Assembly (NCBI RefSeq): GCF_024298845.1 | Contig: NZ_CP101156.1 | Location: 2,666,001 to 2,730,000 of the forward strand | Direction: 5' to 3' | Source: Natronosalvus amylolyticus | GTDB lineage: Archaea; Halobacteriota; Halobacteria; Halobacteriales; Natrialbaceae | DNA: 64,000 bases | Part shown: one piece after another, positions 55,061 to 57,696 of the stretch | Numbering within the stretch: position 1 is the first letter of the stretch | How the letters are laid out: the number at the start of each line of letters is the position of its first letter | Notes under the pieces: model-generated | What the model was told of the DNA's origin: nothing | What the model saw: only the letters and a program-made list of their open reading frames with translations | Databases searched by the model: none | Program-made: the position numbers and the translations under genes

Positions 55061-55374
55061 ACTGGCGTTCGGGTAGACGGGGAAATAACGGTTGGCCTCG
55101 AGGCCGTGCCATCGGGTTTCTCGCCTCGAGATAGATTGATATTGAAACAAAACTAAATCGCTATAACCATACTACTTGATTGTATATTACTAATAAGTTG
55201 GTAGTTTCACAAAAGTATAGTGGCTGGCGCCGTCCCTCGAGTGTGGCCCGAGTCCGACCCTCTCCACCCGGAGTGATAACTGCGGTCGAGTCTGGTCTCG
55301 AGCGGTCCCGATTCGGACGTGTCTGACGGGCGTCTGACGGGGAGTTATCTATCGTGGCTTCCATTCGCCCGATT
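55061..55374. other. 314-bp intergenic region with AT-rich core
   Basis: Divergent region between the LLM gene and the lipoprotein gene. About 55135-55225 is unusually AT-rich with several TATA-like strings; it is probably promoter DNA. A TTATCTATC element about 25-31 nt before 55375 can serve the lipoprotein gene. No ORF or RNA recognised. Confidence 0.55.
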
Positions 55375-55863
55375 ATGACGGATATCACGCGCCGACAGGC
55401 CCTCGCGGCAACGGGGCTGACTGGTGCAGTGGCACTGGCGGGGTGTGCTGGGGCGACCGACGACGATGGTGGTTCGTCGGAATCGAATCCCGAGGGGACG
55501 ATTCTCGGCGAGATCACGGTCGAAAACCTCGCGGATACGGACCACACGGTGGACGTGCTCGTCGAGTTCGACGGCGAAATCGAACACTGGTCGACCCACG
55601 AGTTCGACGAGACGAGCGAAGGCGTCACTCTCGAGGGTGACTGGCCAGACGACCACGGTTCGTTCCGCGTGACCGCACGCCTCGACGAAGGCGAGTTCAC
55701 GAACGTGACGCCGGGTGGATTGAGCAACCCCTCGTGTGTGAACCTCTTTATTCTCGTTCAGCGGGAAGGGTCGATTCGAATCGCCGGCGTCACCGACGGT
55801 GGCCCATGTGGCTCGGGTGATGCCGCTCTCGAGGATGCTGAAGACGCTGATACGAACGACTGA
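55375..55863 (+). CDS. Tat-lipoprotein of unknown function
   Basis: A 162-residue predicted exported lipoprotein. The signal is MTDITRRQALAATGLTGAVA followed by LAGCAGA with the lipobox Cys at about 26. An acidic Ser/Gly linker follows, then a beta-rich domain: GTILGEITVENLADTDHTVD, VLVEFDGEIEHWSTHEF and SFRVTARLDEGEFTNVTPG. Two Cys residues (PSCVNLF and GGPCGSG) may pair. The mature domain looks like an Ig-like or beta-sandwich fold. Role unknown. Confidence 0.8.
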   Translation: MTDITRRQALAATGLTGAVALAGCAGATDDDGGSSESNPEGTILGEITVENLADTDHTVDVLVEFDGEIEHWSTHEFDETSEGVTLEGDWPDDHGSFRVTARLDEGEFTNVTPGGLSNPSCVNLFILVQREGSIRIAGVTDGGPCGSGDAALEDAEDADTND

Positions 55864-56065: not shown

Positions 56066-56941
56066 ATGACCACCATCGTGAGCGCTTCGGCATCCCAGGC
56101 ACTGGCCGGTGCGCTCGCTCGTGAACTCGAGGCACCGCTCGCTGGCGTCGACTACGACCGGTTTCCGGATGGCGAACTGTTCGTCTCGCTCACCGATCCG
56201 GAGGTCGTTCGCGACGAACGGGTTGTTCTCGTCGGTTCGACAGCCTCGAGCGATGCCCATATCGAACTGTTGTTGCTCCAGGACGCCCTTCGCGAGGCCG
56301 GTGCCGAGCACGTCGTAACCGTCATCCCGTACATGGGATACGGCCGTCAGGACAAGGCTTTCGAGGCGGGCCAGCCGGTTTCCGCTCGAGCGGTTGCCCG
56401 GGCGATTTCGACGGGGACCGACGACGTCGTGGTCGTCAATCCCCACGAGGACGCAGTCTGTGACTTTTTCGAGCCACGGGCGACGCCGGTCGATGCTGCC
56501 GGCGTCCTCGCGGGGGCGTTGCCGGCCGACCTCACCGACCCGGTCTTTCTCTCGCCGGATTCGGGAGCCATCGAACTCGCCGAGACGGTCCGAAGCGCCT
56601 ACGGCGACGGTGAAACCGACTACTTCCAGAAGATTCGACGGTCGGGGACTGACGTCGAGATTACGCCGAGTGACGTCGAAGTGGCCGGCCGGGACGTCGT
56701 CGTCACCGACGACATTATCGCCACCGGTGGGACGATGAGCGAGGCGGTTTCGGTCTTGCACGAACGGGAGGTCGGCCGCGTTTTCGTCACCTGTGTCCAT
56801 CCGCTGTTGGTTCGGAGCGCGCATAGTCGACTCTCGCGTGCTGGCGTCGAAGCCATCTACGGGACGGACACGCTCGAGCGCCCCGTGAGCCGGGTTTCGG
56901 TCGCACCCGCCCTCGCGGACGTGCTTGGAACTGGTCAGTGA
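56066..56941 (+). CDS. prs: Ribose-phosphate pyrophosphokinase
   Basis: A 291-residue enzyme that makes PRPP from ribose 5-phosphate and ATP, feeding purine, histidine and other pathways. Motifs: DYDRFPDGELFVSL, VVTVIPYMGYGRQDKAFEAG (the ATP-binding flexible loop) and VVVTDDIIATGGTMSEAVSV (PRPP/R5P-binding loop). The N-terminal ATG at 56066 gives MTTIVSASASQALAGALARE as expected; the longer frame (from 55982) does not. Its stop codon is the start of a 29-bp unit duplicated downstream. Confidence 0.95.
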   Translation: MTTIVSASASQALAGALARELEAPLAGVDYDRFPDGELFVSLTDPEVVRDERVVLVGSTASSDAHIELLLLQDALREAGAEHVVTVIPYMGYGRQDKAFEAGQPVSARAVARAISTGTDDVVVVNPHEDAVCDFFEPRATPVDAAGVLAGALPADLTDPVFLSPDSGAIELAETVRSAYGDGETDYFQKIRRSGTDVEITPSDVEVAGRDVVVTDDIIATGGTMSEAVSVLHEREVGRVFVTCVHPLLVRSAHSRLSRAGVEAIYGTDTLERPVSRVSVAPALADVLGTGQ

Positions 56942-57008: not shown

Positions 57009-57150
57009 GCCATGCCCCTTCGACCGCTTTCGTTCACCTTGATTGATAGGTTAACACAACAGTCGACACGCCCGAGAACCATCGATACTCTCTATAGCGA
57101 CCCGGCCAAAGGCGATGACGTACCCCGAGCCACGCAACTGCACCCCCCAG

Positions 57151-57696
57151 ATGCACGGACTCATCTTCCAGACGTGCAAAACGTACGTCATCGAGCGGAC
57201 TGACGAAGCGAGTTGGGCGAAAGTGCTCGAGCACGCGGGCATCGAGCCTCGTCTGTACCTGCCGGTCTCGCACTATCCCGAGGACGAACTGGTCGCTATC
57301 CTCGAGTCCGTCGCGGCCCTTTCCGGACACGACCGTATGGCGGTCGAACGCGATTTCGGACGAACGCTCGCACCCGAACTCTTACAGACGTTTCGAGCCC
57401 ACTGGCGCGACGATTGGGAACTGGTCCATCTCCTCGAGAATCTCGAGGGAATCGCCGAAGAACTGCGGACGAAGACCGCCGAGAACGACCCGCCACTGGT
57501 GACGTGCACGAGGACTGACACCGGATTACAGGTGACCTACCGCTCACACCGCGACCATCCGGCCCTCGCTCACGGCGTTCTCGAGGGTGTTGCGGCCGTG
57601 TTCGACGATGACCGGCGCGTCCGCCGACTCGAGACGACTCGTGACGCTGGCGAGACGCGATGTGTGTTCGTTCTCGAAGAGTCGACTGAGTCCTGA
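57151..57696 (+). CDS. Heme-NO-binding (H-NOX)-like protein lacking the proximal His
   Basis: A 181-residue stand-alone H-NOX-fold protein. The N-terminus MHGLIFQTCKTYVIERTDEA, the core FGRTLAPELLQTFRAHW and the C-terminal strands are typical. The propionate-binding YxSxR motif is intact (VTYRSHRD; Y130, S132, R134). In family members the proximal heme ligand is a His about residue 102-105; here the aligned segment reads LLENLEGIAEELR and has Ala102. Heme binding is thus doubtful. ATG 57151 (family-like start) is chosen over 57115, which would add twelve residues. The downstream neighbour is mscS, about 190 bp away. Confidence 0.8.
   Translation: MHGLIFQTCKTYVIERTDEASWAKVLEHAGIEPRLYLPVSHYPEDELVAILESVAALSGHDRMAVERDFGRTLAPELLQTFRAHWRDDWELVHLLENLEGIAEELRTKTAENDPPLVTCTRTDTGLQVTYRSHRDHPALAHGVLEGVAAVFDDDRRVRRLETTRDAGETRCVFVLEESTES

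Follow-up and report, generated by a model that had tools for sequence, protein, structure and literature searches.

The window, that is the whole 64,000-nucleotide stretch of Natronosalvus amylolyticus DNA that was analysed, contains an open reading frame of 181 residues, ended by a stop codon, whose product belongs to clade B, one of two groups of haloarchaeal HNOB proteins described below (Table 1). An in-frame ATG further upstream, at 57115, would give a protein of 193 residues, but the start MHG at 57151 is preferred because it is conserved in 71/71 clade B relatives. When searched against Pfam-A up to E = 10, the protein gave a single match, to HNOB (PF07700), at 77.6 bits (E = 1.4e-21; curated cut-off 25.5 bits), with residues 2 to 155 covering positions 1 to 159 of the 163 in the profile; the V4R profile gave no match at E values up to 10, and a search of NCBIfam with the protein gave none. 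The best PDB sequence matches were solved H-NOX structures, and a profile built from the query's clade found 2kii with E = 3.3e-23 and also detected sGC beta. The sequence-only reading of this DNA had proposed an H-NOX fold with an intact YxSxR motif in a stand-alone domain. All of this was borne out, by the Pfam match, by the motif YRSHR and by the finding that neither a kinase nor a cyclase is fused to the domain. There is only one HNOB gene in the genome.

Table 1 Features of the locus (positions in the window; So, S. oneidensis H-NOX)
Feature	Position	Strand	Basis
prs, ribose-phosphate diphosphokinase (PRPP synthase)	56066..56941	+	Pfam PF13793/PF00156; synteny
HNOB/H-NOX-fold protein, clade B, 181 aa	57151..57696	+	Pfam, alignment, tree
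Codon of Ala102, proximal heme-ligand position (So His103)	57454..57456	+	Alignment
Pro115, counterpart of the proline that distorts heme; kept in 69/71 of clade B	57493..57495	+	Alignment
YRSHR, the YxSxR propionate motif, residues 130-134	57538..57552	+	ORF translation, alignment
Pro137, zinc-site cysteine position (So Cys139); Cys in 62/71 clade B, Pro in 6/6 of query genus	57559..57561	+	
Thr162, zinc-site cysteine position (So Cys164)	57634..57636	+	Alignment
Cys171, sole remaining zinc-site cysteine of the query (So Cys172)	57661..57663	+	Alignment

An AlphaFold2 model, generated from a two-sequence alignment, had a pLDDT of 56, which is too weak for the placement of side chains. The order of its elements fits H-NOX, with Ala102 within a long helix (residues 86 to 108), and a Foldseek search with this poor model gave H-NOX or sGC structures as the top 33 matches (best E = 2e-7, to H-NOX with a TM-score of 0.37; TM-scores 0.3-0.4 overall). 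The model appears to support the fold class and nothing finer.

The conserved neighbour of the gene is prs: 68/71 clade B loci have it just upstream of HNOB and in the same orientation, and one of the three exceptions is a contig end. Where it was measured, the gap between prs and HNOB is 69-231 bp, with AT-rich boxes in some lineages only. Before prs in the window is a lipoprotein-like gene (55354-55863, + strand) with a twin Arg signal, an AGC lipobox-like end and no Pfam match; a lipoprotein-like gene is found in this place, on the same strand, in 38/71 clade B loci. Farther out a phosphohexomutase gene is commonly seen near clade B and, on the far side, a CARDB-domain gene and an isoleucyl-tRNA synthetase-like gene, the last identified by eye from its sequence. 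The sequence-only reading gave mscS as the downstream neighbour, which is correct for the window, but the arrangement is not conserved: mscS lies beside HNOB only here and in locus L001, and it was rejected as a functional partner. Among the recurrent neighbours of clade B within about 5 kb there was no kinase, cyclase, c-di-GMP enzyme or methyl-accepting chemotaxis protein (MCP). In one genus (g2; e.g. L055, L065, L067) a partly palindromic sequence, GTTAGCGCGTGGCACGAG...CTCGGCCACACGAG, is conserved about 75-30 bases before the start of the clade B HNOB gene.

Ala102 of the query aligns with His103 of S. oneidensis H-NOX, both with MAFFT (118-122 sequences) and, profile against profile, with hhalign, and it falls in the column that is always His in haloarchaeal clade A. 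The position of the S. oneidensis His103 was verified by counting; one reference row in the alignments is chain 6ocv, the S. woodyi H-NOX. The query DWELVHLLENLEGIAEEL and the clade A form EWDGLELIANIQQFHTSL run free of gaps through this column, and as the query HLLENLEGIAEEL is also gap-free against haloarchaeal H-NOX ELIANIQQFHTSL, the assignment of residue 102 is independent of gap placement. This confirms the earlier claim of an Ala at the proximal-His site. A heme-binding H-NOX gas sensor has its proximal His on helix alpha-F, where the query has Ala102.

The earlier reading had named H84 or H93 as residues that might occupy the proximal site instead. From the alignments neither is convincing as a substitute heme ligand: H84 also occurs in 34/45 members of clade A, all of which have His102, and H93 is unconserved, being absent from all five other sequences of the query genus. 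H136 was rejected too, as it is missing in L033 and L044, which have also lost the Cys, yet is found in the Tyr-type L076.

A search for HNOB in 391 haloarchaeal genomes, a sample of a larger class, gave matches in 85, and the 116 usable proteins fell into two groups. In clade A residue 102 is His in 45/45 members; in clade B, which includes the query, it is something other than His in 71/71 (40 Tyr, 10 Ala, 8 Val, 8 Thr, 2 Arg and one each of Ile, Ser and Leu). Loss of His in all 71 orthologues excludes chance or an error in a single genome, and the scatter of residues speaks against any one conserved ligand having taken the place of His at this site. The sequence-only reading had suggested a survey of homologues for Ala: Ala does recur, but as one replacement among several in a clade better described as never His. 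A FastTree phylogeny with bootstraps, from which column 102 was taken out, separated the two clades with a support of 1.0 and, in a thinned set, in 100/100 bootstraps; clade B is monophyletic. Parsimony reconstructs Tyr as the state at the root of clade B and counts 18 changes at site 102 over the whole tree; Tyr was probably the ancestral residue of the clade.

By genome, 45 carry clade B only, 26 both clades and 12 clade A only. A sample drawn from the wider phylum gave no clade B member of full strength outside the class, the best other matches scoring about 60 bits. Searching the genome contigs with DNA patterns recovered only L001, which is 94% identical, and a search of viral contigs for relatives found none. 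Two adjacent clade A copies form tandem HNOB pairs in L003, L005 and L028 (genomes G276, G383 and G373). An MCP gene adjoins the clade A HNOB gene in L104 (3060-4763, - strand) and six clade A loci have a similar gene on the same strand, which suggests that chemotaxis still receives input from clade A.

Pro115, Tyr131, Arg135 and the distal residues are named here by their numbers and roles in S. oneidensis and T. tengcongensis H-NOX. Pro115 and Tyr131 are each retained in 69/71 members and Arg135 in 66/71; in those whose residue 102 is something other than His or Tyr, the query genus included, all three are present in 31/31. The hinge residues Gly70 and Gly142 are found in 71/71, and Gly146, Trp22, Tyr42 and others are also invariant. 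Further residues are specific to clade B and absent from clade A: His6 (68/71; Leu or Phe in clade A, and Phe in the query itself), Ala74 (67/71) and Leu35, Leu37, Leu73 and Phe81 (each 71/71). Such fixed residues indicate new constraint and not decay, and the overall pattern of residues kept and lost points to a re-purposing of clade B. The query gene is itself under constraint, with a dN/dS of 0.075 against L001 and of 0.16-0.37 for other pairs in the genus; the open reading frame is intact in all six sequences of the genus and the pocket-lip residues are kept in 6/6.

A feature that the earlier reading missed is the set of zinc-site cysteines, mostly kept in clade B and lost in the query genus. 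The triad is complete in 44/45 clade A members, the remaining one being truncated, and in 60/71 of clade B, where the position of the fourth zinc ligand is Lys in 26 members. A Zn-thiol redox H-NOX has three zinc cysteines and a fourth ligand; at these positions the query has Pro137, Arg159, Thr162 and Cys171, and its genus has Pro137 in 6/6, Arg159 in 6/6, Thr or Ser162 in 6/6 and Cys171 in half. With Ala102 as well as these changes, the query has lost both the heme ligand and the zinc site. In the H-NOX proteins of V. cholerae and Caulobacter a zinc site of the S. oneidensis type carries heme-independent oxidant sensing and signalling (PMC7108781, PMC12329717).

As the loss of His is common to the whole group, the clade B proteins are very probably not sensors of NO or O2 by means of a His-held heme. 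The fuller reading that we favour, to which we give about half a chance, is that the query would be a stand-alone haloarchaeal pseudo-H-NOX that does no gas sensing through His-bound heme, takes a non-gas ligand where YxSxR borders the pocket, and gives its output by hinge motion. It is supported by the absence of His throughout clade B against its presence throughout clade A, and by the 26 genomes in which both paralogues are kept. As a paralogue of the haloarchaeal H-NOX that carries the His, the protein would have abandoned sensing by His-ligated heme early in the group, leaving a pocket presumably free of such heme, in which YxSxR would grip a non-gas ligand, most likely one with an acidic group; iron-free porphyrin or another small molecule is a candidate. 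The state of the ligand would then be relayed to a partner protein by way of the Gly70/Gly142 hinge and the surface of alpha-F, as in other H-NOX proteins. For most of clade B the zinc-thiol redox site may provide a second, heme-independent input, gone in the query genus. Signalling of this kind has a parallel in V. cholerae H-NOX, which still signals when free of heme (PMC7108781). YxSxR might also have been retained for structural reasons.

The alternative that survives best, possible though on balance unlikely, is that the protein still binds heme and that heme is itself what is sensed or carried. The propionate motif would hold it, with Tyr as the ancestral axial ligand and, in the query, water, some other residue or nothing from the protein in that place; the protein would then be a heme sensor, a heme carrier or an H-NOX that is constitutively 'activated-like', the natural equivalent of the laboratory mutant H103G. 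Tyrosinate is a known heme ligand, and Tyr stands at 102 in 40/71 clade B members. The retained Pro115, Tyr131 and Arg135 could equally mean that heme is bound without His, and His6, so specific to clade B, would also fit. PDB entry 2kil, by its title the Fe(II)CO form of S. oneidensis H-NOX H103G, is a protein that folds and takes heme, so an H-NOX without the His is able to hold it. On the other hand, the drift at residue 102 through eight residue types is unexpected for a functional ligand, the query has neither His6 nor Tyr102, and human sGC beta H105C is without heme (PMC8196705).

It is improbable that an NO/O2 heme sensor became, in haloarchaea, a gas-blind regulator tied to PRPP synthesis, a free-standing pseudo-H-NOX whose former heme pocket would take a carboxylated metabolite or a porphyrin and which would work with Prs or a nearby system. 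The constant place beside prs argues for vertical inheritance; prs is a positional neighbour of clade B HNOB, and a functional link between them is putative.

It is quite improbable that the query lineage is heading for loss of function, the heme ligand having gone first and the zinc site second. Both functional sites are indeed gone in the query genus, one draft genome of the same genus is without HNOB, and in the related genome G051 the HNOB copy (L116) is split over two reading frames and probably frameshifted. Against this, the dN/dS values argue against decay of the gene, as do the six intact reading frames with their pocket-lip residues, and decay is disfavoured when judged on rates. A zinc-thiol redox switch, in which oxidation of the zinc-bound triad to disulfides would alter the activity of a partner without heme, may be valid for most of clade B, given its cysteines, its likeness to the bacterial switches and the near-identical spacing of C206, C232 and C240 in the archaeal V4R regulator MsvR (PMC3729527), a model of which weakly matches one clade A and one clade B member, but the frequent Lys at the fourth position speaks against it and for the query it is very improbable, being refuted by the substitutions that make the site impossible in its genus.

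The proximal His is usually held to define prokaryotic H-NOX, and clade B keeps the edge of the pocket and never the His. The haloarchaeal proteins thus offer a natural series, from His to Tyr to Ala, Thr or Val and on to loss of the zinc site, bearing on which parts of H-NOX signalling depend on the bond between His and iron. Annotations of haloarchaeal proteins as 'heme NO-binding' may mislead for most copies. In the open-licence literature no paper on haloarchaeal H-NOX was found, which is weak as evidence of absence.

Among known systems, the bacterial H-NOX proteins of S. oneidensis, V. cholerae and T. tengcongensis (PF07700) are like the query in fold, as judged from sequence, in length, and in YxSxR, Pro115 and the hinge glycines, whereas the query has no proximal His and no neighbouring kinase or MCP; in a published set of 598 relatives of V. 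cholerae H-NOX that His was reported to occur without exception (PMC7108781). The closest paralogues, haloarchaeal clade A as defined here, are at most 36% identical to the query and differ from it in their invariant His, their nearly constant Cys triad and, for some, an adjoining MCP gene. The V4R sensors (DmpR/MopR and the archaeal MsvR) belong to a related fold class with a heme-free ligand pocket, and the spacing of their Cys3-Glu zinc site matches that of clade A and of many clade B members (PMC7264223, PMC10715001, PMC3729527), but the query is without a V4R match in Pfam, a DNA-binding domain, an ATPase domain and the zinc cysteines. In sGC, the H105C form of the beta subunit resembles the activated state, and the pseudo-H-NOX of the alpha subunit is likewise an H-NOX domain without heme, the human protein having no ligating His (PMC8196705). 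The alpha subunit is eukaryotic, part of a cyclase heterodimer, and has an N-terminal extension that blocks the pocket, whereas the query is a free-standing archaeal protein with no such extension and with YxSxR intact. Pseudo-H-NOX domains that lack the His are thereby already known from eukaryotes.
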